From Akkermansiaceae bacterium (GTDB lineage Bacteria > Verrucomicrobiota > Verrucomicrobiia > Verrucomicrobiales > Akkermansiaceae), in contig CAIKHZ010000319.1 in the NCBI GenBank assembly GCA_903827375.1, positions 1-57,376 on the forward strand: 57,376 nucleotides of DNA, written 5' to 3'. The position numbers and the translations under genes were made by a program. Under the pieces are notes generated by a model. It searched no databases and was not told the DNA's origin. It was given only the letters and a program-made list of their open reading frames with translations. Below are positions 26,003 to 48,230 of this stretch, one piece after another; the stretch's first letter is position 1; each line of letters opens with the position of its first letter.

Positions 26003-26665
26003 CTACTCGGCAGCCGCCTGCTCCTTGGCTGCCTTTTCCTTGGCTTCTTTGTCGGCCTTGGCTTTGGCTTCCTTGGCGGCTTGGGCGGCGAGTTTCTTCT
26101 CCTCGTCGGCCTTGCGGCGGGCGGCCACCTCTGCGGCTTCGAGTGGGCGGAGTTGGGCGTGATAGTCGGTTGAGCGTGCCAAGCGCTGTTTGTTGAACAA
26201 CAGGTCGCCAAAGCGATCGGAGGTGCTCAACTCATATTCGCCATCCATATAGATCGAGTCAAACGGGCAGACTTCGGCGCAAATTCCACAGTTCATGCAG
26301 ACGGACACATCGATATCAAACACCTTCGGACGCTTGAGCGACTTGCCATTTTCATCGCGGTCTAACACGATGTAGATGCACTGCGGCGGGCATTCATTCT
26401 CACAAATCGAGCAGGCCGTGCAGCGCATCCCGGCCATGGCGTCACTGCCATCATAGACCAGGAATGGGAAATTCCGGAAGTTGGGGCTGATGGTGGCGCG
26501 CTCCTCAGGATACTGGACAGTGGTCATCCGATCCTTGCGGTAATAGCTTTGGATCATGTTTGTGGCCGTCACGGCCAAGCCCTTCAGCAAACCGATGCCG
26601 GGAAGCGTCCAGGCAGCCGTGGGCGGCGGGCCGGAGGGGCGGGAGGTAGTTGCGGGATGTTCCAT
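26003..26665 (-). CDS. nuoI: NADH-quinone oxidoreductase subunit I (NuoI)
   Basis: This subunit carries two 4Fe-4S clusters (N6a, N6b) that pass electrons to NuoB in complex I. The sequence shows both ferredoxin motifs: CTACSICENECP and CMNCGICAEVCP, near residues 84 and 128. An N-terminal amphipathic stretch (LPGIGLLKGLAVTATNMIQS) fits membrane-side attachment. The C-terminus is extended by about 45 residues rich in Ala and Lys (KADEEKKLAAQAAKEAKAKA and similar), a likely charged helix not usual in NuoI. The ATG at 26665 gives 220 residues and starts 7 bp after the nuoD stop. A TTG at 26683 would overlap nuoD and is less likely. It is last of the nuoB-C-D-I operon. Confidence 0.88.
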   Translation of the reverse strand: MEHPATTSRPSGPPPTAAWTLPGIGLLKGLAVTATNMIQSYYRKDRMTTVQYPEERATISPNFRNFPFLVYDGSDAMAGMRCTACSICENECPPQCIYIVLDRDENGKSLKRPKVFDIDVSVCMNCGICAEVCPFDSIYMDGEYELSTSDRFGDLLFNKQRLARSTDYHAQLRPLEAAEVAARRKADEEKKLAAQAAKEAKAKADKEAKEKAAKEQAAAE

Positions 26666-26672
26666 GGAATGA

Positions 26673-27833
26673 TTATCTATCAACTTCCCCTAACACGATA
26701 TCGACGCTGCCGAGGATGAGGACGACGTCGGCGAGGTCGAGGCCCAAGCACATATCTTCGAGCAATGTCAGATTGATAAAACTCGGCGGGCGGATGCGGT
26801 AGCGGAAAGGGTTGGCCGTGCCGTTGCTGATGAGGTGGAAGCCGAGTTCGCCCTTGGGACTCTCGATGCGGGCGTATGCCTCACCGACCGGCGGCTTGAA
26901 GTTGCGAATCTTTGCCTTGGGATGAATGTAGGCACCTGCAGGCAGTTGGTCGAGGGCCTGGCGGAGGATGGCGAGGCTCTCTCGCAATTCCAGAAAACGG
27001 ATCATCAAGCGGTCATAGCAATCGCCAGTGGTGCCCAGGGGAATGCGGAATTTAAAGCGATCATAGATGCCGTAAGGCTCGGCTTTGCGGATATCATAAG
27101 CGACGCCCGCAGCCCGCAACATGGGACCGGTGATGCCGCCATTGATGAGGGTTTCCTTGGGCAGCGCACCGATGTTTTGGGTTCTGGCGATGAGAATCTC
27201 ATTGCCAGTGATCAGGTTTTCCAACTCATCAAGGAAACGCGGAAATTCATCCACCAGCACGCGAGCCCTGGCCGCCCATCCGTCCGGCAGGTCGTTGCGG
27301 CAACCGCCGAAACGCATAAAATTGGACATCATCCGAGCGCCGGTTAGATCTTCGAACAGGTCGAGGATTTTCTCACGTTCACGGAACGCATACATCAGGG
27401 CCGAGCCCCAAGCCCCCATGTCGCCGAGGAAGAACCCGACAAAGGCCGTGTGATTGATCAGGCGGGTGAGTTCGGCGGTGATGATGCGGATGTACTCGGC
27501 GCGTTCCGGCACCTCGATGCCAGCGAGTTTTTCCACGGCTTGGGCGTAGGCCCAGTTATTGGTGAGCGGGCAGATATAATCGAGGCGGTCGGTGAAGGGC
27601 ATCGACGAGAGATAAGTGACGCCCTCGGCGATTTTCTCGTGATTGCGGTGGAGGTAGCCGAAGACTGGCTTGAGGCTCACCACGGTTTCGCCGTCGAGCA
27701 CCACATTCATGCGGAACACGCCGTGAGTGGACGGGTGCTGCGGGCCTAACGAAACATGCAGCAATTGGTCCTCGTCCAACTCCGGCTTGGAGGCGGGGCT
27801 GGCGGCAGGCGGCATGGACGGGTTGGAAATCAT
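26673..27833 (-). CDS. nuoD: NADH-quinone oxidoreductase subunit D (NuoD)
   Basis: The 49-kDa-type subunit of complex I helps form the quinone-binding site with NuoB. The sequence shows the family start [21 protein letters not shown] and the lines [51 protein letters not shown] and [13 protein letters not shown]. It ends [20 protein letters not shown], the usual C-terminus of NuoD. At 386 residues it is a stand-alone NuoD, not a NuoCD fusion. It lies 46 bp downstream of nuoC. No Shine-Dalgarno sequence is evident at the ATG. Confidence 0.95.
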
Positions 27834-27879
27834 GCTGGGAAAATTCAGTTAGAGACCATCGATAATAAATTTCAAATAT

Positions 27880-28488
27880 TCAGATCTCGGCTTTGGTGGG
27901 GTAGTATTTTTTGGCTTTTTCCAACACGGCGTCGTGGGGTGTGGGTTCGTATTGGTAATCGTCGGGTGCCACATAATCCTTGCGCATCGGGTGATCCAAA
28001 AATTCATCCCACATCAGAATACGCCGCAGGTCCGGGTGACCGGTGAAGCGCACACCGAACAAGTCGAAAATTTCGCGTTCCTGATATTCGGCGCTCCGAT
28101 AGACGGCCACCACCGAAGGGATGTGCACTTGTTCGGCGCGGTCCGTGGTACGAGTTCGCAACACGAGCGGACCGATGCGGAGAGAGGTTGAGTACAAGTG
28201 ATAGACGACCTCCAGGAAGCCACAGGCGAGCGGCGTGGTGCCTTCGGGTGGCACCGCCACGGCATCTGCCTTGGCGGGTTCCGGCCAATCCACGCCGGTC
28301 ACGTTGGATAGAAGATCGAAGTCAAGGTCGGCAGTATTGCGAAGGAATTGGCAGACGGCGACGAGTGACTCTGGTGCGACTAGCAGGGAGTCTTGGGCGG
28401 ACGGGCTGGGGTTTCGCAGATGTGCGATGGCGGCCGTTGGCAGCGCGGCATGCAGGCGGGTGAGAATGGCGGGAAGGTCAGGCGTCAT
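27880..28488 (-). CDS. nuoC: NADH-quinone oxidoreductase subunit C (NuoC)
   Basis: The 30-kDa-type subunit of the complex I peripheral arm. The ATG at 28488 overlaps the TGA of nuoB as ATGA, which supports this start (202 residues) over an upstream in-frame one at 28527, and suggests translational coupling. Family lines visible are [25 protein letters not shown] and the signature [20 protein letters not shown], then [23 protein letters not shown]. It ends about 25 residues after [12 protein letters not shown]. Confidence 0.93.
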
Positions 28489-29114
28489 GATGCGCTGGCG
28501 TCGCGGGTGAGACTGGGCGGATTCCAAACGTCCGGATTAAACGTCGGCTCAAGGTCGTGCGGGCCAAATTCAGGCACGGGAAGGTCGCCCGGTCCTTTGG
28601 GATCCGCGTGGCGGGCACGGTTGCTGCCCAAAAGTTTCTCTTTGGCGATTTTTTCGCGCAGCGTGATCAGTCCGTGGAGTAGAGCCTCGGGCCGGGGCGG
28701 GCAGCCGGGGATGGAAACATCCACAGGGATGAAGCGGTCGATGCCTTTGAGCACGTTGTAGCCATCCTTGAACGGCCCGCCGGAAATTGCGCAGGCCCCC
28801 ATGGCGATGACGTATTTCGGCTCGGCCATCTGGTTGTAAAGACGCACCACTTGCGGCGCCATTTTCTTGGTCACCGTGCCGGCGACGATCATCAAATCCG
28901 CCTGCCGTGGTGAGGGCCGGAACACTTCCGCGCCAAAACGCGCCATGTCGTATTTGGCCATCGTCGCGGCGATCATCTCGATGGCGCAGCAGGCAAGGCC
29001 AAATTGCAGGGGCCACAGCGAACTGGCGCGGCCCCAATTGATCAAACTCTCGAAGGAAGTGACATGCACTCCCTGCGATTTCAGGTCTTCCGCCAATTTT
29101 TGATCAATTGCCAT
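28485..29114 (-). CDS. nuoB: NADH-quinone oxidoreductase subunit B (NuoB)
   Basis: This subunit binds the 4Fe-4S cluster N2 that reduces quinone. The four cluster cysteines are visible: C42 and C43 in [10 protein letters not shown]108 in MGACAISGG and C138 in [14 protein letters not shown]. The length of 209 residues is normal, with a proline-rich C-terminal tail. It is the first gene of the nuoB-C-D-I operon. No nuoA precedes it in the 490 bp upstream, and none of nuoE, F, G, H or J-N occurs in the window. Confidence 0.95.
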
Positions 29115-31020: not shown

Positions 31021-32160
31021 TCAGCTCAATGCAGCGGCAATGGCCGCGTAGGCCGGCTTCGGGTGGTAGTCGCTGTCGAAGATCAATGCCTGGTCATAAG
31101 TGCCGCCGGAAGTGCCCGGTACCCATGAATAGCGGTCGGTAAATCCCCAAAGCATCACGACAGGGCACTTGCGGGCGGCGAGGGCCGTCTCGATCACACC
31201 GCGGTAAACCGCCGCTTGTTGGTGGAGGTGTTCGGCGGTGGATTGGGCGGGCAGCCACACGTCGAGTTCTGTGATGTGGACGCTGAGGCCGAGGTCATTC
31301 AGGCGGCGGATGTTTCGGGTCACATCGGCGGGGTCTGGGTGCTGTTCGAGTTTCACATGATACTGCAAGCCGACGCCATGGATGGGCACGCCTCGGGCCA
31401 ATAACTCCTTGAGCCACAAGTAACACCGATCAGCCTTGTCAGACATTCCGTCCATCGCGTAATCATTGTAAAATAACAGCGCCTGCGGGTCAGCTTCATG
31501 GGCGAGGTGATAGATTTCTTCCACATAGTTGGAGCCGATGGAATGGAACCAGGGCCCCTCCTCGCGCAAGCCAGGCCCGCTGTCACTCAATCCTTCATTG
31601 AGGACATCCCAGGCGCAAATCCGGCCGCGGAAATGCTTCATCACGGTGAAAATATGCTCGCGCAAAATGGCGAGAGCCTCTTGGCGGGGAAACGTTTTGC
31701 CCTCGGCCCAGGGCGGCAGGGCATCATGCCAGACGAGCGGCACGGCGCGGGCCTGCATGTCATGGGCGGCGGCGAAGGTCATCATCGCGTCGGGCACGGT
31801 GAAATCAAAGGCTCCGCGTTCAGGCTGAATGTCGCAGAGTTTCATGCTGTTTTCGGCTACCAGACAGTTGAATTCGCGAGCTAACACGCCGCCGTAGCCG
31901 GGGTCGTTACGGAACGCTTCGTGGCAAAACGCGGTGCCCAGCAGCAAGCCTTTTTTGGAGGCCAAGGCGCGCAACGTATCGGCGGCGGGCTGCGGACTGG
32001 CGCTGGAGGAATGAGCCGGTTCTGCAACGGCTTGGGCCGGAGCGGATTCGCTGCGGGCCTCCGGAGCGGCGAGCATCGGCATACCAGCGACCAGACCGGC
32101 GGCACCGGTGGTCTTGATGAAACCACGGCGCGTCAGGTATGGGGGAGGAATGGGGTGCAT
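31021..32160 (-). CDS. Tat-exported GH10 endo-1,4-beta-xylanase
   Basis: The ATG at 32160 gives 379 residues starting MHPIPPPYLTRRGFIKTTGA. This is a twin-arginine signal with a hydrophobic stretch ending near LAAPEARS; a GTG at 32190 is possible but less likely. After a Ser/Ala/Pro linker, the barrel starts near residue 67 (KKGLLLGTAF). Family residues are seen: VAENSMKLCDIQPERGAFDF, PLVWHDALPPW, acid/base E189 in WDVLNEGL and nucleophile E298 in VHITELDVW. LWGFTDRYSWVPG closes the barrel. It cleaves xylan backbones, which fits the arabinofuranosidases in the window. The Tat route differs from the Sec-type signals of the neighbours. Confidence 0.93.
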   Translation of the reverse strand: MHPIPPPYLTRRGFIKTTGAAGLVAGMPMLAAPEARSESAPAQAVAEPAHSSSASPQPAADTLRALASKKGLLLGTAFCHEAFRNDPGYGGVLAREFNCLVAENSMKLCDIQPERGAFDFTVPDAMMTFAAAHDMQARAVPLVWHDALPPWAEGKTFPRQEALAILREHIFTVMKHFRGRICAWDVLNEGLSDSGPGLREEGPWFHSIGSNYVEEIYHLAHEADPQALLFYNDYAMDGMSDKADRCYLWLKELLARGVPIHGVGLQYHVKLEQHPDPADVTRNIRRLNDLGLSVHITELDVWLPAQSTAEHLHQQAAVYRGVIETALAARKCPVVMLWGFTDRYSWVPGTSGGTYDQALIFDSDYHPKPAYAAIAAALS

Positions 32161-32280
32161 GGCAGGGTTGGAGGCATGCGAGGGTTTCACGGCTCGCCGG
32201 ACATGTCAATCCACCACCAACATCCTCACCACGAAAAAATATTTGCCCTGACAAATTTTCGCTCGACGTGAGGGAATGGA

Positions 32281-33300: not shown

Positions 33301-33727
33301 CAATTCCCTCGACACGAACTGGTTCGGTGTCCCGTCAATGGGATCCTAAACCGGGTAAGAGTCCAAAAAAACACCGGGTTCTGATACGGTCGGCAGCAGC
33401 TCAGCCTGCTTCTGTTCCCTTTGGCGCTTTAGGTGTTTTTTCATGTCCGTATTTCAGCCAATCGTAGATCCGGACCACCCGGCGGAAGTAGGTTGTCAGG
33501 GTTTGTTCCGATTTATTTTGGATCGGGCACCTCATTTCGTCTTTGGGATCATTGATGCCAGCCCATGAGGCACCGCAGTTACACCCCTCCCCTCCGTGCC
33601 CCATGAGGAAGAAATGTCGCGCCGACAGAAGCCCCGAACCTGGAGCGGGTATGGATTTGCAGCTCATGTTGGCATTGCTTCAGCTCACGGCATCCGCTAG
33701 CATCGCCGCTTGGCACCTGCCCATCCT

Positions 33728-36013
33728 ATGAAATCTCCCTATCAACGATTCCTTGTAGCCGCCCTAGCCACGTTTTTTGCGGCGTCTTCGGCACCGGCGG
33801 CGCTCTCCATTCAAAACGAGCGCATCAAGCTAACGTATGAAGCTGGCAGCCTCACCCTGAGTGATGTAGTCGGCGGCAAATCCTTTGGCGTGGCTACTCT
33901 GGCTGGGGCGGGCGGCTCCGGCAAGGTGGTGGCGGTGAGCGACGCCACCTTCGGCAAAGGCGAGGCCATCGAGATTGCGGACCCGAGTGGAGGCGGCCGG
34001 GTGGAGTTGTTTCCCGGGTTGCCATTTGCGTTGGTCAAATTGCGGGTGACCCATACGGGCAGCGATGTGAAGGTGCTCAACAAGGTGCCGGTGGTCACCA
34101 TCGCAGTGGACCTCGGCAAGCCAGCAGAATCCCTCAGGGGGTTCGGCACCGGCGGACTCTCAAGCCTGGCCGATAACAAAGGCAGTTATATGTGGCAGGC
34201 CCTCGTCGATCCTCTAACGCGCCATGGCGTGGTCGGCGGTTGGCTCACCACCGCTCGCGGCAGCGGCGTCGCCTTCGTCGGCCTCAATGACAAGCAGCCA
34301 AGTTTCAGAGCTCAGGTCGAATACGGTCGGCTTCGCCTCGCGCCAAACCAATCCGAGCCCCTCGAAACCTTTGCGTTTGGCTACTTCGAGGACGCCCGGC
34401 TCGGCATGGAAGCTTGGGCTGATGCTACCGCCAAGGTGCTAAACATCAAGCTGCCGCCCCTGCCCACCGTCTATTGCACCTGGTACCACAGCGGCTCGTC
34501 TGACGAAAAACAACTGCCTCTGCAAGCCGCCTTTGCTGCCAAGAATTTTGCCGCGCACGGGTTTTCTGTGGTCCAGATCGACGACGGCTGGCAGGACGGC
34601 CAGTCAAAAAACGGCCCTCGCAAAAATTTCACCCAGGTCCAGCCCGGCGGCCCTTACGCCTCCGGTATGAAGGCCACTGCGGACAAGATCAAGGCACTCG
34701 GGTTCGTGCCCGGCATCTGGCTGATGCCATTTTCCGGCACACATGACGACCCGTGGTACAAGGATCGGCAGGATTGGTTTGTCAAACGCGACGACGGCAA
34801 GCCGCATGACAGCCCGTGGGGCGGGACGGCATTAGATATGACTCATCCCGAGGTGCTGAAGTATCTGCAGGATGAGATCCACCGCATCGTCAAAGAGTGG
34901 GGATATGGCTATTTGAAAATGGACGGCCTGTGCTCGGGCGCGGCAGTCAATCATTGTTATGTCAATGATGCCTACAAGGATGATAAAATGGGCGACGCCG
35001 TCCTACACAATCCTAACAAAACAAATATCGAAGCCTATCGCGATGGCCTGAAACTGATCCGCGAAACCGCCGGCAAAGATACCTTCATCCTCGGCTGCTG
35101 CACACCCCAGAATATGCGCAGCTACGGCGGTCCCTTCGGTCTCATCGACGCCATGCGCATCGGCCCGGACAACGGCCCGAACTGGGGCGGCATCCGCACA
35201 GGTCCTACCTACGGAGCCCGAAACTATCACCTCAACGGCCGCATCTGGTACAATGATCCGGATCCATTGTATGTCAGAACCAGCCTGCCTATCAACCAAG
35301 CCAGGGCGATTTGCTCATGGGTCACTCTCAGCGGCCAGTTGAGTGCCAGCAGTGACTCGTACCCCGATCTAACGCCAGAACGGATCGATCTGCTGAAACG
35401 CACGATGCCGTCACATCCGCTTCGGCCGCGGCCGGTTGACTTGTTTGAGGCGGATATTCCTGCCATCTGGCTGCTCACCGACACCCGCGCCGCAGCGCGC
35501 CGCGATGTGGTTGGATTGTTCAACTGGGATGAACATAAGGAACTAACGATTGATCGACCGCTGGCCAACATCGGCCTCGATGGCCAGGCTGAGTACGTCG
35601 CTTATGAATACTGGTCCAACAAAATGACCGGGCCGTTCAAAGGCAACTTGAAGCAGACACTCGCCCCTGCAACCTGCGCCATCCTGTCATTGAAGGCGCT
35701 GGCCGTGCATCCGCAGGTGATCAGCAGCTCCCGACATATCACCCAAGGCATCATCGATGTGGTTCAAGAATCATGGGCACCCGCCACCAAGCAACTCAGC
35801 GGCACCAGCCGTCTGGTCGCCAATGATGACTATGAGTTGCGCGTCGTCACACTCATAACTAACGGAAACAATCAGGCGCTCAAGGCCGAGGTTTCCGCAG
35901 AGGACCGGGCAGCCGGGGTCAGCGTGGCTCTGCAGCAACAGGATGGTTTGGCTAGGATTTCACTCAAGTCACCGACCTCAAGGGATGTCAAATGGTCGGT
36001 CGGATTCAATTGA
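33728..36013 (+). CDS. Exported alpha-galactosidase-like GH36/GH27 clan enzyme
   Basis: The ATG at 33728 gives MKSPYQRFLVAALATFFAAS, a signal peptide ending near APAALS; an in-frame ATG at 33710 adds six residues without signal character. The 761-residue protein has an N-terminal beta-sandwich (to about 240). The barrel follows: VVQIDDGWQDG (about 281-291), GFVPGIWLMPFSGTHDD, and GYLKMDGLCSGAA, where D399 matches the catalytic nucleophile of clan GH-D. SYGGPFGLIDAMRIGPDNG probably holds the acid/base region. A C-terminal beta-domain follows. It should hydrolyse alpha-galactosides, for example galactomannan side chains, which fits the GH38 and GH10 enzymes nearby. No strong ribosome binding site precedes the ATG. 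Confidence 0.85.
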   Translation: MKSPYQRFLVAALATFFAASSAPAALSIQNERIKLTYEAGSLTLSDVVGGKSFGVATLAGAGGSGKVVAVSDATFGKGEAIEIADPSGGGRVELFPGLPFALVKLRVTHTGSDVKVLNKVPVVTIAVDLGKPAESLRGFGTGGLSSLADNKGSYMWQALVDPLTRHGVVGGWLTTARGSGVAFVGLNDKQPSFRAQVEYGRLRLAPNQSEPLETFAFGYFEDARLGMEAWADATAKVLNIKLPPLPTVYCTWYHSGSSDEKQLPLQAAFAAKNFAAHGFSVVQIDDGWQDGQSKNGPRKNFTQVQPGGPYASGMKATADKIKALGFVPGIWLMPFSGTHDDPWYKDRQDWFVKRDDGKPHDSPWGGTALDMTHPEVLKYLQDEIHRIVKEWGYGYLKMDGLCSGAAVNHCYVNDAYKDDKMGDAVLHNPNKTNIEAYRDGLKLIRETAGKDTFILGCCTPQNMRSYGGPFGLIDAMRIGPDNGPNWGGIRTGPTYGARNYHLNGRIWYNDPDPLYVRTSLPINQARAICSWVTLSGQLSASSDSYPDLTPERIDLLKRTMPSHPLRPRPVDLFEADIPAIWLLTDTRAAARRDVVGLFNWDEHKELTIDRPLANIGLDGQAEYVAYEYWSNKMTGPFKGNLKQTLAPATCAILSLKALAVHPQVISSSRHITQGIIDVVQESWAPATKQLSGTSRLVANDDYELRVVTLITNGNNQALKAEVSAEDRAAGVSVALQQQDGLARISLKSPTSRDVKWSVGFN

Positions 36014-36124
36014 GGCGGCCCTAGAGTCCTTGAAAAGCCAAATTCGCTGTCGTTAAGTCAAGTTTTCATCTCCTCTGTCTTCAAGTCCTGTGTCTTGTGT
36101 CTGAGGCGCAGCCTCACTAGCAAT

Positions 36125-37711
36125 ATGATTGATCTTCCGTTCAACCTCCGGCTCAAGGAAATCCTGGGGGAAACCGGGCGCTTTCCGCTTGGCGTCGAAC
36201 TGGTGTCCACCCGCGGCACCATGAGCCAACAACTCACCCGAAAAACCCGTGAGTTTTCGCAAGACCTAACGGACAGTCCGCGGGTTGACTGGGTATCTAT
36301 CACCGACAATGCAGGGGGCAACCCGCAGCTCGCGCCCATCGCCTTGGGCACCCCGATCTTGTTTGCCGGCAAGGAGGTGGTGATTCACCTGACGTGCAAG
36401 GACCTGAACCGCTACGCGCTGGAGAGCCAATTGTGGCTGCTGGCCAGCCAGGGGTTTCACAACATTTTAGCGCTGACTGGCGACTATCCGATCGAGTGTT
36501 TTGAGGGTTGTGCAAAGCCGGTATTTGACCTCGACTCAGTGGGGCTGCTGACGCTCATTGAAAAGATGAACGGCGGCTTGGAGGTGACCTCGGGCAGTGC
36601 AAAGGTGGCGACCAAACTGGATCCAACGCATTTTTTTGCCGGTGCAGTAACCAGTAATTTCAAGTTCCGCGAGAACACACTGGTGCCACAATATTACAAA
36701 TTGGAGAAAAAAATCGAAGCCGGTGCCAAGTATATCATCAATCAAATCGGCTTTGATTCCCGCAAGGGTCACGAATTGCTCGAATACCTGCGCCTGCGCC
36801 AACTCGGCCACATCCCTGTCATCGGCAACGTCTATGTGCTGAGCCGCTTTGTGGCGCGGTTGTTCAACCAAATGAAAATCCCGGGAGTGATACTAACCGA
36901 CGAGTTGGAGGCACTTTGTCAGAAGCAAGGGGCATCGCCGGACAAGGGCAAGGTGTTTTTCCATGAGTTTGCGGCGAAGCAGTTGGCTATCTATCGAGGG
37001 CTTGGCTACGGAGCCGGCTATTTGGGTGGAGTGCACAGTTATGCGGAGATTGAGGCGATTCTGAAGGTGGAAAACTCGTTTGCCAAGGATGATTGGAAAC
37101 TCTTCGCCAAGGAAATCTCCTTCTCCCGCCCCGGCGAATTCTTCCTTTTCGAACCCGACCCCGATACCGGACTTTCCCGCCCCGGCACCGTCAACGGAGA
37201 TTGGCAGAAATCCCTGACAACCAAACAATCTAGCAAAAATGTGGGTTTGAGCTACCACCTTTCCAAGCGTTTCCACTCCCTCATGTTTGAACACGGCAAG
37301 GGCCTTGCGCCGCTAGCCACCACCCTTTGCCAAAACGCCATCAATCCCAGCCAGGGACCCAAGTGGCTGCGCGGCATCGAGCACCTGTCAAAATTCCTGT
37401 GGTTTGGCTGCAGGGATTGCGGCGATTGCTCGCTGGGAGAGACGGCATTTTTGTGTCCCGAATCCCAGTGCGCCAAGAACCAACGCAACGGCCCGTGCGG
37501 CGGCACCCGCGACGGCCGATGCGAGGTCTTCGACTACGAATGCATTTGGGCTCGTGCATACGACCGGATGAAATACGAGGGTCGATCCGAACAATTGCTA
37601 GGGCACGTGCCGGTCATTCAGAACCAAGGTCTGCGCGGCACCTCGAGCTGGGCGAATTTTTGGCTAGGCAAAGATCACGCGGCAAAGCAAGACTTCACCA
37701 CCCCCACATGA
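36125..37711 (+). CDS. metF: Methylenetetrahydrofolate reductase fused to a MetV-type Cys-rich domain
   Basis: Residues 1 to about 300 are the MetF barrel: PLGVELVSTRGTMSQQLTRK, WVSITDNAGGNP, VIHLTCKDLNR, LALTGDYPIE and GAKYIINQIGFDS. These fit reduction of 5,10-methylene-THF to 5-methyl-THF. The C-terminal part contains FGCRDCGDCSLGETAFLCPE, QCAKNQRNGPCGGTRDGRCE and ECIWARAYDRMKY, the signature of the MTHFR_C/MetV family. MetV partners MetF in acetogens and some other bacteria. The ATG at 36125 gives MIDLPFNLRL (528 residues); an upstream in-frame ATG is less likely. The stop overlaps the next start as ATGA. No SD is evident. Confidence 0.88.
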   Translation: MIDLPFNLRLKEILGETGRFPLGVELVSTRGTMSQQLTRKTREFSQDLTDSPRVDWVSITDNAGGNPQLAPIALGTPILFAGKEVVIHLTCKDLNRYALESQLWLLASQGFHNILALTGDYPIECFEGCAKPVFDLDSVGLLTLIEKMNGGLEVTSGSAKVATKLDPTHFFAGAVTSNFKFRENTLVPQYYKLEKKIEAGAKYIINQIGFDSRKGHELLEYLRLRQLGHIPVIGNVYVLSRFVARLFNQMKIPGVILTDELEALCQKQGASPDKGKVFFHEFAAKQLAIYRGLGYGAGYLGGVHSYAEIEAILKVENSFAKDDWKLFAKEISFSRPGEFFLFEPDPDTGLSRPGTVNGDWQKSLTTKQSSKNVGLSYHLSKRFHSLMFEHGKGLAPLATTLCQNAINPSQGPKWLRGIEHLSKFLWFGCRDCGDCSLGETAFLCPESQCAKNQRNGPCGGTRDGRCEVFDYECIWARAYDRMKYEGRSEQLLGHVPVIQNQGLRGTSSWANFWLGKDHAAKQDFTTPT

Positions 37712-38634
37712 ATCGACATCCCCTCCACATCATCGGCGAATTGATCAACCATTCCTATGGCCGAGCCCGCAAAGCCTGGCAGGCCCGGGATATCGCCGGT
37801 TATCAGGAATTGGCAAAACTCCAAAGCGCCTTGGGCGTCTCTTATCTAACGCTTAATATTGACGGCACCCGGATCCTTCCTGTGACGATGCAAGAGATGT
37901 TGGATTTCCTGCCGCAACTCATCCCTGCGATCCAGGAGGTGAGCTCCGTGCCTATCAGCTTCGACAACCCCGACGTGGCGTTCCACCGCGAATGCCTCAA
38001 ACACTACGATCCCGCAAAATCCACCGGGCGTCCCATCCTCAATTCCATCGCGGTATCCCGGCATGACGTCGCCGCCATGATTCAACTCGCCAAGGATCAC
38101 GACATGAACGTCATTGTCATGGCTTCCGAATGCCTGAGGCCCGGTGGCTTGCACGGTCCGGCCACCAGCGTGGAGGATATTCTCGACACAACCCGCTATT
38201 TTGTCGCGATGTTGCGTGAGCAGGCGGGCATTGAATGTGACCGAATCATTGTGGACCCGGGGCTGGCACCGATCGCCTCGGACACCAGTGGCTTGATCAA
38301 CCTGTGTCTTGATTCGATAGCCGCCCTGCGAACGGACCCGAATCTACAAGGCATTCACATATCTGTGGGTCTGTCAAACTTTGCGTTAGGCGCGCCCAAG
38401 TCGATGCAAGTGGCTTTGGAGCGGGCATTTTTGCGTTTGGCGATGGATGCTGGCATGGACTTTGCGCTCGCCAATCCCGAAAAAAACACAGTCCCCCTGG
38501 CCCACGATGCCAAGCTGGTGCGCGACCTCAGCCGCGTCCTCGATGAAGGCCGCGTCCACCCTGGCGAATCCGCCGAGGATGCCGGCTATCGTCAACTCGA
38601 CGCGTTGATGGACCTGTGGAGCGATCCCAATTGA
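37708..38634 (+). CDS. Pterin-binding (DHPS-like) methyltransferase, AcsE/MtrH-like
   Basis: The ATG at 37708 overlaps the metF TGA (ATGA), which fixes the start and gives 308 residues. The fold is a pterin-binding TIM barrel: MNRHPLHIIGELINHSYGRA, LGVSYLTLNIDGTRI, VPISFDNPDV, GRPILNSIAVSR, CDRIIVDPGLAPI and GIHISVGLSNFALGAP. This resembles methyl-THF:corrinoid methyltransferases and the MetH pterin domain more than folate-synthesising DHPS, because INH-S-x and NS-x-A-x-S lines occur in the former. It may move the methyl group made by MetF to a corrinoid protein, but no corrinoid protein or CODH/ACS gene is in the window. It is in one operon with metF and the next gene. Confidence 0.8.
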   Translation: MNRHPLHIIGELINHSYGRARKAWQARDIAGYQELAKLQSALGVSYLTLNIDGTRILPVTMQEMLDFLPQLIPAIQEVSSVPISFDNPDVAFHRECLKHYDPAKSTGRPILNSIAVSRHDVAAMIQLAKDHDMNVIVMASECLRPGGLHGPATSVEDILDTTRYFVAMLREQAGIECDRIIVDPGLAPIASDTSGLINLCLDSIAALRTDPNLQGIHISVGLSNFALGAPKSMQVALERAFLRLAMDAGMDFALANPEKNTVPLAHDAKLVRDLSRVLDEGRVHPGESAEDAGYRQLDALMDLWSDPN

Positions 38635-38641
38635 TTGAATC

Positions 38642-39943
38642 ATGCCCGCTCTATCGATGCCCCCGGACGTCCTGGCAAACCTGCGCGTCACCCCGGCTTA
38701 TCCGCTGCGCTGGATCGTCGTCGGAAAATTGCTGGATGCGGCGAATCACCGGGTTCTGACGAACGCTCACCTCATCTATAACTCATCCAATATTCTGTAT
38801 GTCGGCAACGAGCAACCCACTGCGGCAGTTACCGGTGGTCGCCTGACCCCGGATTTGATTTTGGCGGATTTCACGGCGCTGCCCGGGCTGATCGAGGGCC
38901 ACTCACACACATTTTTGGAAGGGGCGGAATTGGCGGCGGAGAAGCGTGGTATCTATCAGAAGCAGGATCCCGCCACCCTCTATCAGCTGGCAGCGGCCCG
39001 ATTGCAAGTCCTGGCCCGGTTGGGTATCATTGCGATGCGTGACGGGGGGGACAAGGACGGGGTTGGCCTGCGGCTGAGCCGGGACACCGTCCCTGATAGG
39101 TGCCCGGCATTCACCGCGCGGGTTTTCAGTCCCGGGGCTGGCATTCACCGCCTCGGCCGCTACGGCGGATTTTTCAGCACGCCGGTGGAAGATCACCTAT
39201 CCATCGAGAGTTGTGTGCAAGCCCGAGTGGCCGAGGGGGCTGACCACATCAAGATTGTGCCCACTGGGATTATCAATTTTGCCAAAGGTGCGGTGACGGC
39301 CAAGCCGCAGTTTGAGGTGGGGGAGATCCAACAATTCCGGCAGGCAGCGCACGCAAACCGGCGGCATCTGATGGCCCACGCCTCTGGAGAGATCGGCGTG
39401 GGGCACGCTATCGACGGCGGTGTCGATACCCTGGAGCACGGGTTTTTTATCAGCTCCGATCAGTTAGCAAAGATGCGTGACAAGGACATCGCGTGGGTGC
39501 CTACCTTCACCCCGGTGCAGGAACAAGTCGATCACTCAGATATCATGGGCTGGGATGCTCCCACGCTGGACCACCTCCGCCGCATCCTCGACAATCATGC
39601 CCGCAGTTTGCAACAGGCCCTGGCGCTGGGCGTCACCGTCTTGGTCGGCAGTGATTCGGGGTCCTGCGGCGTCGCCCACGGCACGGGTTTGTTATACGAG
39701 ATGGAGTTGTTGGAAATGGCCGGCATGCCAACCCTCGACATTCTGTGCCAGGCAACTCGCGGCAACTCGCTGCGTTTGATCGGCGGGGATCACTTCGGTT
39801 CGCTAGAAGCGGGCTTCAGACCGCGCTTCATCCTTACGGCAACCGACCCATTAGCCTCGGTGCGCAACCTCCAACACGAGCGTCTGGTGGTGTTCGATGG
39901 CGCGGCGGAATCCAGCGCGACGGTGAGCCTCGCCAATCTCTAA
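38642..39943 (+). CDS. Metal-dependent amidohydrolase (imidazolonepropionase-like), cytoplasmic
   Basis: The 433-residue protein lies 7 bp after the methyltransferase and is surely in the same operon. It has no signal peptide. Metal-site motifs of the amidohydrolase superfamily are visible: PGLIEGHSHT, HIKIVPTG (putative carbamylated Lys region), MAHASG, DTLEHGFF and VLVGSDSGS. The order and spacing match prolidase/imidazolonepropionase-like members that cleave cyclic amides or dipeptides. The operon context suggests a substrate that feeds or drains the C1-folate pool. The substrate is not predictable from sequence. Confidence 0.85.
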   Translation: MPALSMPPDVLANLRVTPAYPLRWIVVGKLLDAANHRVLTNAHLIYNSSNILYVGNEQPTAAVTGGRLTPDLILADFTALPGLIEGHSHTFLEGAELAAEKRGIYQKQDPATLYQLAAARLQVLARLGIIAMRDGGDKDGVGLRLSRDTVPDRCPAFTARVFSPGAGIHRLGRYGGFFSTPVEDHLSIESCVQARVAEGADHIKIVPTGIINFAKGAVTAKPQFEVGEIQQFRQAAHANRRHLMAHASGEIGVGHAIDGGVDTLEHGFFISSDQLAKMRDKDIAWVPTFTPVQEQVDHSDIMGWDAPTLDHLRRILDNHARSLQQALALGVTVLVGSDSGSCGVAHGTGLLYEMELLEMAGMPTLDILCQATRGNSLRLIGGDHFGSLEAGFRPRFILTATDPLASVRNLQHERLVVFDGAAESSATVSLANL

Positions 39944-43845: not shown

Positions 43846-46017
<2,172 letters not shown>

Positions 46018-46126: not shown

Positions 46127-46807
46127 ATGCACCTTCTAGTCGCCGAAGACGACCCGCGCAGTTTAGAATTCCTCACCAAGGGGTTGAACGAGAACGGCTT
46201 TACGGTGGACGCGGCCACCGACGGTGAAACGGCGTGGCAGCGGATCCGGGAAGTCGCCTTTGACCTGATCATTCTCGATGTGATGATGCCAGCCATGGAC
46301 GGTTGGGACGTGATTACCCATCTGCGTGCCGCCGGCATTGCCACTCCGGTGTTATTCCTAACTGCTCGCGACACGGTCGCCGACCGCGTCAAGGGCCTGG
46401 ACCTAGGAGCTGACGATTATCTGGTCAAGCCCTTTGCCTGGCCGGAGTTTCTGGCCCGAGTGCGGACGTTGCTGCGGCGCAAAGTGGGGCCGGGCCCGGA
46501 GGTTCTGCGGGTGGCCGATCTGGAGCTGGATCTTGCCCGCATGAAAGCCCGGCGCAGTGGCCAGCCCATTGATCTAACCGCAAAAGAGTTCCAAATGCTC
46601 ACTCTGCTGGTCAGGCACCAGGGCGAGGTTGTGTCCCGAGACATGCTGGCCAAGCAAGTTTGGGAAGTGAACTTTTTTGTGGATTCCAATGCCATCGACG
46701 TCGCCCTCGGCAGGCTGCGCAAGAAGGTGGACGAGTCATTTTCCCATAAACTTATCCGCACCATCCGTGGTGCGGGCTATTCGCTGGAGGTGTCTGACCA
46801 TGCCTGA
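46127..46807 (+). CDS. OmpR-family response regulator (heavy-metal/CusR-like)
   Basis: The 226-residue protein has a receiver domain with acidic pocket EDD (7-9), phosphoacceptor D51 in ILDVMMPAMDGWD, T79 in FLTARD and K101 in LVKPFAW. A winged-helix DNA-binding domain follows (ADLELDLARMKARRSGQPID ... LTAKEFQMLTLLVRHQGEVV ... VALGRLRKKVD ... IRTIRGAGYSLE). It is closest in pattern to CusR/CopR-type regulators. Its stop overlaps the kinase start by 8 bp. The upstream 109 bp hold repeat A and no recognised operator. Confidence 0.93.
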   Translation: MHLLVAEDDPRSLEFLTKGLNENGFTVDAATDGETAWQRIREVAFDLIILDVMMPAMDGWDVITHLRAAGIATPVLFLTARDTVADRVKGLDLGADDYLVKPFAWPEFLARVRTLLRRKVGPGPEVLRVADLELDLARMKARRSGQPIDLTAKEFQMLTLLVRHQGEVVSRDMLAKQVWEVNFFVDSNAIDVALGRLRKKVDESFSHKLIRTIRGAGYSLEVSDHA

Positions 46808-48230
46808 ATCCCCCCTACGACGCAGAATGCCCCTCACGCTGCGCCTCGTCATGGGCAGCACGCTGGTTTGTGGCACCTGCCTGTTGGGGGTCGGTTGGCT
46901 CTCCATTCATACGTTGCACCAGCGCTTCGACAGAACGAATGCGAGCTTGCTGGCCGACCACTTGGCGGAGGTTAGGCAAACCGTGTTTGACCACCCCGGG
47001 GACCTTCACGAGGTCGCGGAGTTAATTCTCATTTCCTCCGCCTCCCATCAGGTGAACAGTTACTATGGGCAGCTCACCGATGCATCCGGGGAGGTTGTGG
47101 CGGCCACTCCCGAATTCGGCCAAGTGGTGCCACCGGGCACGGTGTTTCCAGCGACGGTTGGCTCAGATGAAATCCCCGAGCGCGAGCAGCAGTCCCGCCT
47201 AACCGTCCAGAGCGGTGAGTTGTTCCTGCTGGCCGCCAAGGTCCGCCAGAGCGGCGGTGCCCCGGAATTGCTCTATCAGGTGGCCCTCAATGCCGGCCAT
47301 GTCGAGGAATGGCTGGCCAACTACAACCGCACTCTCGGCATCTTCATTGCCATAGCCACGGCAGCCTCGGCCCTGCTAAGCTGGCTGGTGGCGCGCAGCG
47401 GACTGGCCCCGCTGCGGGACATCACCCAATCCGTGCAGCAAGTGAGCGCGCCGGGCCTTACCGGGCTCCTTGGCGTCAGACCCTGGCCTGCCGAGTTGGC
47501 CGCGCTGGCAGGGGAGTTCGACCGGATGCTCGGGCGCCTGGATGATTCGTTCAACCGCTTGTCGCAGTTTACCGCAGATGCCGCCCACGAATTCCGTACC
47601 CCGCTGAGTAACCTAACGGGATCCACCAGTCTCCTTCTCACCAGGGAGCGCTCCGTCGCGGAGTATCGCGAGATCTTGGAAGCCCACCTCAAACAATACG
47701 AGCGGCTAAACCGCATGATTGAAAGCCTGTTGTTTCTGGCGCGAGCGGACGGCAAGACCGTCGCTCCCCAAATCCACCCACTCGCTGCCGGTCACGTGCT
47801 TTGCGATATCGCAGAATTCTTCGCACCCTTGGCCGAGGAGAGTGGTGTAAACCTAACAATTGACGGCGACGCCACCCTGCTGGCCGATGAATCCCTGCTG
47901 CGCATGGTGCTCATCAACCTGATCGCCAACGCCCTCCGCGTCACTCCGCCGGGCGGCACCATTGCCCTAGGCGTGAACCGGGATGAGACGGGCCACACGC
48001 TGGTCACGATCGCGGATACGGGTTGCGGCATCGCCCCGCAGCACCTCTCGAAGATCTTTGACCGCTTCTACCGCGTTGACGCCGCGAGGAGCAGCAGCGG
48101 CACCGGACTCGGCCTGGCTCTCGTACAGACCATCATGAAACTCCACTTCGGCAGCGTGACTGTGACCAGTAAAGCGAACTGCGGCAGCACCTTCCAGCTC
48201 GTTTTCCCAGACGCCATGCCTCCGGACTGA
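46800..48230 (+). CDS. Sensor histidine kinase, heavy-metal/CusS-like
   Basis: The ATG at 46800 overlaps the regulator gene, and the 476-residue protein is its partner. It has membrane segments at about 13-36 (LRLVMGSTLVCGTCLLGVGW) and 178-198, with a periplasmic sensor between them. A HAMP domain follows (SGLAPLRDITQSVQQVSAPG). The H-box is AAHEFRTPLSNLTGS with H263, and the ATPase motifs are NLIANALR, DTGCGIAPQHL, FDRFYRVD and SSGTGLGLALV. The signal is unknown; the layout resembles metal-sensing kinases. The downstream exported InlB-repeat protein could be a target, but no shared operator was found. Confidence 0.93.
   Translation: MPESPLRRRMPLTLRLVMGSTLVCGTCLLGVGWLSIHTLHQRFDRTNASLLADHLAEVRQTVFDHPGDLHEVAELILISSASHQVNSYYGQLTDASGEVVAATPEFGQVVPPGTVFPATVGSDEIPEREQQSRLTVQSGELFLLAAKVRQSGGAPELLYQVALNAGHVEEWLANYNRTLGIFIAIATAASALLSWLVARSGLAPLRDITQSVQQVSAPGLTGLLGVRPWPAELAALAGEFDRMLGRLDDSFNRLSQFTADAAHEFRTPLSNLTGSTSLLLTRERSVAEYREILEAHLKQYERLNRMIESLLFLARADGKTVAPQIHPLAAGHVLCDIAEFFAPLAEESGVNLTIDGDATLLADESLLRMVLINLIANALRVTPPGGTIALGVNRDETGHTLVTIADTGCGIAPQHLSKIFDRFYRVDAARSSSGTGLGLALVQTIMKLHFGSVTVTSKANCGSTFQLVFPDAMPPD

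Follow-up and report, generated by a model that had tools for sequence, protein, structure and literature searches.

Three-component O-demethylase and chloromethane (Cdm) systems combine a URO-D-like methyltransferase I (MTI), a corrinoid protein and a methyltransferase II (MTII) that passes the methyl group to tetrahydrofolate (THF, H4folate); MTI/corrinoid/MTII systems of this kind are described in passages of PMC13222342. The same component classes are found in an Akkermansiaceae bacterium (assembly GCA_903827375.1; 6.1 Mb, 370 contigs, 96% complete, 1% contamination), from which we analysed a stretch of 57,376 nucleotides (contig CAIKHZ010000319.1; hereafter the window). An operon at 36125–39943 encodes a MetF–MetV fusion, an AcsE/MTII-like methyltransferase and an amidohydrolase-superfamily protein. 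This operon is probably a module serving the folate side of a three-component system for corrinoid-dependent methyl transfer (demethylation), the parts of which are spread over several contigs. It is best read as a known kind of system, the folate half of corrinoid demethylation, with a new dedicated component, the amidohydrolase.

Unlike the O-demethylase and Cdm systems, the operon has a dedicated amidohydrolase and a MetF–MetV fusion, and neither CdhC nor formate–THF ligase (FTHFS) was found in the genome. Among the shared features, RACo lies within the clusters of four related loci (L092–L095). The best solved relative of the window's MTII (4o0q, whose sequence is common to 4o1e and 4o1f) provides a connection to Cdm, as the methyl-H4folate and H4folate positions in a model of the chloromethane MTII CdmA were taken from 4o1e and 4o1f, according to passages of PMC13222342. 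Type 1 mlp gene clusters, as defined in parts of PMC10418091, exclude H4folate methylases within 20 kb, whereas such a methylase is the core of the window's operon. The main text of PMC13222342 has no occurrence of 'amidohydrolase' or 'Verrucomicrobi', that of PMC10418091 has none of 'amidohydrolase', 'DUF1638' or 'Verrucomicrob', and nothing closer to the window's system appeared in excerpts of PMC7857596, PMC12316311 and PMC11264602. No open-licence PubMed Central paper brought amidohydrolase together with terms for corrinoids, folate and demethylation (reports elsewhere may have been missed), and none joined 4-O-methylglucuron-, demethyl- and corrinoid.

Verrucomicrobiota operons that pair AcsE with FTHFS share the window's MetF–MetV family (47–80% identity) and its AcsE family (34–36% in the four compared), but hold FTHFS in the slot of the amidohydrolase. 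The MetVF and AcsE proteins of acetogens share domain families with the window's proteins, and the pterin residues of Moorella AcsE (2e7f) align, but the window's methyltransferase is distantly related to 2e7f (E = 4e-10) and no carbon monoxide dehydrogenase/acetyl-CoA synthase (CODH/ACS) was found in the genome. In acetogens, MetV is a separate protein. The rhizobial and Paracoccus methyltetrahydrofolate cobalamin methyltransferases are of the same enzyme class by annotation, at 25–26% identity, and the relatives listed from a plasmid collection are 25–29% identical.

The three frames are open, read in the same direction (forward strand) and are closely packed, as had been predicted from the sequence at the outset: the stop of the MetF–MetV gene (36125–37711, 528 amino acids) overlaps the start of the AcsE-like gene (37708–38634, 308 amino acids) in an ATGA at 37708–37711, and the amidohydrolase gene (38642–39943, 433 amino acids) follows after 7 bp. 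An alternative in-frame TTG start for MetF–MetV is possible upstream, at 36095. All three gene names are backed by Pfam and NCBIfam. MetF–MetV matched MTHFR (47.7 bits, residues 55–264) and, at its C terminus, DUF5981, the MetV-like MTHFR C-terminal domain (86 bits, residues 417–496), in which eight cysteines are invariant among 10 aligned fusions; the protein thus has both the MTHFR and the Cys-rich domain that the original prediction had ascribed to it. The genome also carries a canonical MetF (305 bits). In L033 and L034, the MetV domain is N-terminal to MetF, opposite to the order in the window (by Pfam for L033, by BLAST for L034).

Judged by its sequence relationships, the second protein (METHYLTRANSFERASE) is AcsE/MTII-like rather than a dihydropteroate synthase (DHPS), with predicted activity on a corrinoid protein. 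It matched Pterin_bind (54.3 bits) and, below the curated cut-off of 259 bits, PRK07535 (101.6 bits), and its closest solved relatives are 4o0q and then AcsE 2e7f. Residues D86, N112, D183 and N224 align with 2e7f and do not vary among the nine family rows; this Asp/Asn/Asp/Asn set corresponds to the pterin and N5-methyl contacts of AcsE. The earlier description of a pterin-binding, AcsE/MtrH-like methyltransferase therefore stands. In a sample of 387 Verrucomicrobiota genomes, where up to six first-look candidates were scored per genome, 16 had a family member scoring at least 286 bits and the next match reached 106 bits, which marks a distinct family; the amidohydrolase was present in seven of these 16.

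The closest named records with the operon were an Akkermansiaceae metagenome-assembled genome (MAG; AcsE 95% identical) and, next, a Verrucomicrobiales MAG (68%). In genome G028 (locus L042) the three genes recur in unchanged order, with identities of 97% for MetF–MetV and 95% for AcsE; its contig ends inside the amidohydrolase gene, the first 193 residues of which are 90% identical. Gene order is also the same in L043 (genome G477; MetF–MetV 76%, AcsE 68%, amidohydrolase 66%). As the order is kept in G028 and L043, we rejected the possibility that the operon is an artefact.

Candidate partners were found elsewhere in the genome. The claim that both CODH/ACS and a corrinoid protein are missing held for CdhC across the genome and, for corrinoid proteins, among the window proteins scanned, but the genome search that had been suggested for corrinoid proteins, RACo and ACS recovered the first two on other contigs. 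One of five B12-binding matches, on contig C30, is a small corrinoid protein of the methyltransferase type, related to 1y80, 7xcn (a trimethylamine corrinoid protein) and 4jgi and flanked by a URO-D protein and an S-methyltransferase; the other four were read by eye as MetH, mutase, radical-SAM-like and regulator-like proteins. RACo lies on contig C92, adjoining DUF1638, and URO-D gave 16 matches in 15 frames. A URO-D MTI, a corrinoid protein, an MTII and RACo are thus all present in this genome, but on separate contigs, so we class the locus as a module of a three-component corrinoid demethylase and not as a complete system. The genome's MetH (L041:3596–7687) was read as two frames of 364 and 932 amino acids, from either a natural split or an assembly error.

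In other genomes the components lie together. Loci L092–L095 each hold URO-D, corrinoid protein, AcsE, amidohydrolase and RACo genes on one strand of one stretch, joined in L092, L093 and L095 by MetF–MetV; the URO-D matches were weak by BLAST (20–32% identity), and a Pfam rescan limited to L093 and L095 confirmed those two, leaving L092 and L094 with the BLAST match only. L033 contains the same component classes with the MetV/MetF order reversed and RACo divergent, and has DUF1638 and an S-methyltransferase in addition. Directly upstream of the three-gene operon in L043 lies a URO-D gene that shares 60% identity with its C30 counterpart. In G025 (same genus; locus L038), an AcsE-family gene is beside a corrinoid protein 87% identical to that of C30 and also beside a URO-D gene, without MetF–MetV, amidohydrolase or FTHFS.

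Some neighbours of these genes are worth recording. The corrinoid protein at L093:5869–6831 has an extra C-terminal Virulence_fact (PF13769) domain. An AcsE-family gene in L086 is beside a corrinoid protein and frames that look Mvh/Hdr-like and NADH-dehydrogenase-like by eye, and one in L091 is beside frames read by eye as electron transfer flavoprotein subunits; these neighbours are possible electron partners.

From gene families, conserved residues, presence and absence in the assemblies searched, cluster synteny and the dedication of the amidohydrolase, we infer the activities and the direction of flux as follows. A URO-D-family MTI, for example that of C30, would demethylate the methyl donor; the C30 corrinoid protein would carry the methyl group, with RACo keeping it active; and the AcsE-like enzyme would transfer the methyl from the corrinoid protein to THF. 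MetF–MetV would then oxidize methyl-THF to methylene-THF, which could be assimilated or oxidized further, and the amidohydrolase may work as a dedicated part on the folate/one-carbon (C1) side.

The amidohydrolase matched Amidohydro_1 (59.4 bits) and has a complete set of metal ligands (H87, H89, K204, H246, H266 and D338), invariant in 10 of 10 proteins, in the HxH, K, H, H, D pattern of the superfamily. Among its solved relatives are Xaa-Pro dipeptidase, arginine carboxypeptidases and ochratoxinase, and it did not reach the cut-off of the Xaa-Pro dipeptidase model (NF051886; 95.6 versus 500 bits). We searched 72 genomes with a profile of 10 amidohydrolases, scoring at most 25 candidates per genome. 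The set comprised 46 genomes chosen without a strong AcsE-family member (the background) and 26 with one: the source genome, G028, G477, 8 from a set of 99 and 15 from a set of 387. Strong homologues were found in 11 of the 11 genomes with an amidohydrolase beside AcsE and in none of the other 61; because adjacency had served to find the 11, ten of which also went into the profile, it is the zero of 61 that is informative. Scores were 520–656 bits, apart from the gene of G028 that is cut off by its contig end (221 bits), and the best among the other 61 was 158. On this distribution, the amidohydrolase is a dedicated component of the AcsE module. A second subtype, in L033 and L034, is 34–35% identical to the window's protein.

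Pairwise identities of the amidohydrolase track those of AcsE (r = 0.95 for eight loci, 0.97 for six). URO-D was compared over the six loci, with the C30 protein, which adjoins the corrinoid protein, representing the source genome and one of two URO-D proteins representing L033. Leaving aside two close pairs, 13 of the 15 URO-D pairs are 15–29% identical, whereas the amidohydrolases of the same pairs are 34–57% identical. Because of this contrast, we group the amidohydrolase with the folate module. The original proposal of a route fed by an amidohydrolase substrate loses ground here, as the amidohydrolase diverges with AcsE while URO-D, the likely substrate-entry part, differs between clusters.

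Among the 26 genomes with a strong AcsE-family member, the gene beside AcsE was the amidohydrolase in 11, FTHFS in 9 and neither in 6, and never both. MetF–MetV or MetV–MetF accompanied 9 of the 11 amidohydrolase-type loci; in G361, a single-contig genome like G188 and G196, with about 1.1 kb between amidohydrolase and AcsE, no MetF–MetV was found, and in G235 there was none within the stretch read. Of the nine FTHFS-type loci, eight carried MetF–MetV (L035–L037, L039, L040 and L081–L083, but not L085), none being found in G408. Some AcsE + FTHFS operons add an MFS transporter and a homocysteine S-methyltransferase/MTHFR fusion. We read these operons as a candidate methyl-to-formate route, possibly with a gain of ATP. 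On an AcsE tree (26 rows, two solved proteins and the source genome's MetH stretch), the amidohydrolase loci formed one group of eight (support 97/99) and one of three (90/92), and all nine FTHFS loci fell within a group of 14 (93/94, below the level that the tool stars) that also takes in five of the six loci with neither gene; the choice at the third slot thus follows clades.

Several observations weigh against our interpretation. The source genome's parts are on separate MAG contigs rather than together, their partnership rests on homology, and the C30 URO-D has only remote similarity to solved proteins (best E = 0.014). The S-methyltransferase beside the corrinoid protein would also fit methionine synthesis. 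Shared descent alone would make amidohydrolase and AcsE diverge in step, and URO-D identities correlate with those of the amidohydrolase too (r = 0.78, six loci), owing to the two close pairs. The clade-bound slot choice may reflect one or two events. FTHFS occurred anywhere in the genome in 2 of 11 amidohydrolase-type genomes (G196 and G235; G121 had only a 35-residue match below the cut-off), 9 of 9 FTHFS-type and 4 of 6 with neither gene, but a full gene was found in only 15 of 46 background genomes (G014 having a 35-residue match), so its lack in 9 of 11 amidohydrolase-type genomes, set against 31 of 46, is not telling. PurU, which hydrolyses formyl-THF, was over the cut-off in 43 of 46 background genomes, 9 of 11 of the amidohydrolase type (not in G235; G477 at 221 bits, below it), 4 of 9 of the FTHFS type and none of the 6 with neither gene. 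The pathway thus shows no gap that would demand an amidohydrolase reaction. After these FTHFS and PurU counts, the reading of the amidohydrolase as a replacement for FTHFS is weakened. Finally, the predicted structure of the amidohydrolase had a predicted local distance difference test score of 42 and was not used further.

Where the amidohydrolase acts can therefore be proposed only tentatively. It might work on the folate/C1 side, for example by hydrolysing a folate-bound C1 unit: the presence of FTHFS in the equivalent slot suggests that a C1 unit is removed from folate, and formylmethanofuran dehydrogenase/hydrolase provides a precedent for formyl-carrier hydrolysis in the superfamily. A substrate-side role, in which the enzyme would free the methylated substrate or process the demethylated product while the other two genes take the methyl group, is a slightly less likely possibility. 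The peptidase and ochratoxinase relatives and the complete metal site would suit it, as would the usual presence of PurU, which leaves no folate-side gap. However, it is with AcsE that the amidohydrolase is conserved, the URO-D partner being replaced by unrelated paralogues, which would be unexpected for a substrate-specific enzyme.

Hemicellulases abound in the window, which encodes two alpha-L-arabinofuranosidase-family proteins, a SASA-type carbohydrate esterase, a GH10 xylanase (31021–32190, reverse strand), a GH38-family and a melibiase-family protein, and in the same-genus clusters L093 and L094 a UxuA-family gene flanks RACo. This context makes O-methylated hemicellulose sugars candidate methyl donors, the GH10 gene being context for such a donor by inference only. 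More specifically, and rather improbably, the amidohydrolase could be an unrecognized C1-folate hydrolase (acting on 10-formyl- or 5,10-methenyl-THF) that replaces FTHFS in a non-acetogenic, corrinoid-dependent oxidation of methyl groups from O-methylated sugars, such as 4-O-methylglucuronate, by plant-polysaccharide-degrading Verrucomicrobiota. A methylated hemicellulose sugar as donor would suggest a fate for some of the O-methyl groups of plant xylan. Strong members of the AcsE family, present in 16 of the 387 genomes sampled, suggest that a folate-linked, corrinoid-dependent methyl pathway recurs in this phylum of polysaccharide degraders; within it, the amidohydrolase stands out as a dedicated family whose active site is complete but to which no reaction has been assigned.

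The same genes could run in the biosynthetic direction, with MetF–MetV making methyl-THF, AcsE loading the corrinoid protein and the C30 S-methyltransferase making methionine, as a split MetH with RACo as activator. S-methyltransferase genes do occur next to the C30 corrinoid protein, within the L033 cluster and adjacent to the L092 module; yet the genome has its own MetH-type frames and a canonical MetF, and URO-D genes are present in the clusters and directly upstream of the L043 operon, which makes this direction unlikely. Demethylation onto folate outside the Wood–Ljungdahl pathway, as first proposed, agrees with an AcsE/MTII-like enzyme in a genome where CdhC and FTHFS were not found. The MetV-type domain and AcsE-like enzyme might recall the methyl branch of a Wood–Ljungdahl acetogen, but the lack of both CdhC and FTHFS in the 96%-complete genome refutes that pathway as far as the assembly is complete, and we regard it as highly improbable. 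Least credible of all is folate biosynthesis by a DHPS, for which the weak TIGR01496 match (22.8 bits, cut-off 162.6) speaks, against better-matching methyltransferase models and structures, a GLSN motif carrying the AcsE asparagine and the conserved residue set.

The genomic context of the operon includes, directly upstream, a melibiase (alpha-galactosidase) family gene (33710–36013, forward strand) that may or may not be linked to it; a frame resembling melibiase is also upstream of the operon in G028. A promoter and terminator scan returned 4 and 6, respectively, versus 3.9 and 9.3 in shuffled sequences. Four genes of complex I type, for the 20, 30 and 49 kDa subunits and a 4Fe-4S protein, sit apart at 26003–29114, with a glycosidase gene on one side and the GH10 gene on the other; the idea that they form a special electron partner found no support, the 49-kDa subunit showing no NiFe-type CxxC motifs by eye. 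Downstream, the predicted ThiC frame (43861–46017) opens with an alanine-rich low-complexity stretch and is followed by a heavy-metal-type two-component pair (46127–48230). Two response regulators appear alike by eye, one (L071:5308–5925) beside a 480-amino-acid URO-D gene and the other (L042:29–691) upstream of the melibiase-like gene and the operon in G028.

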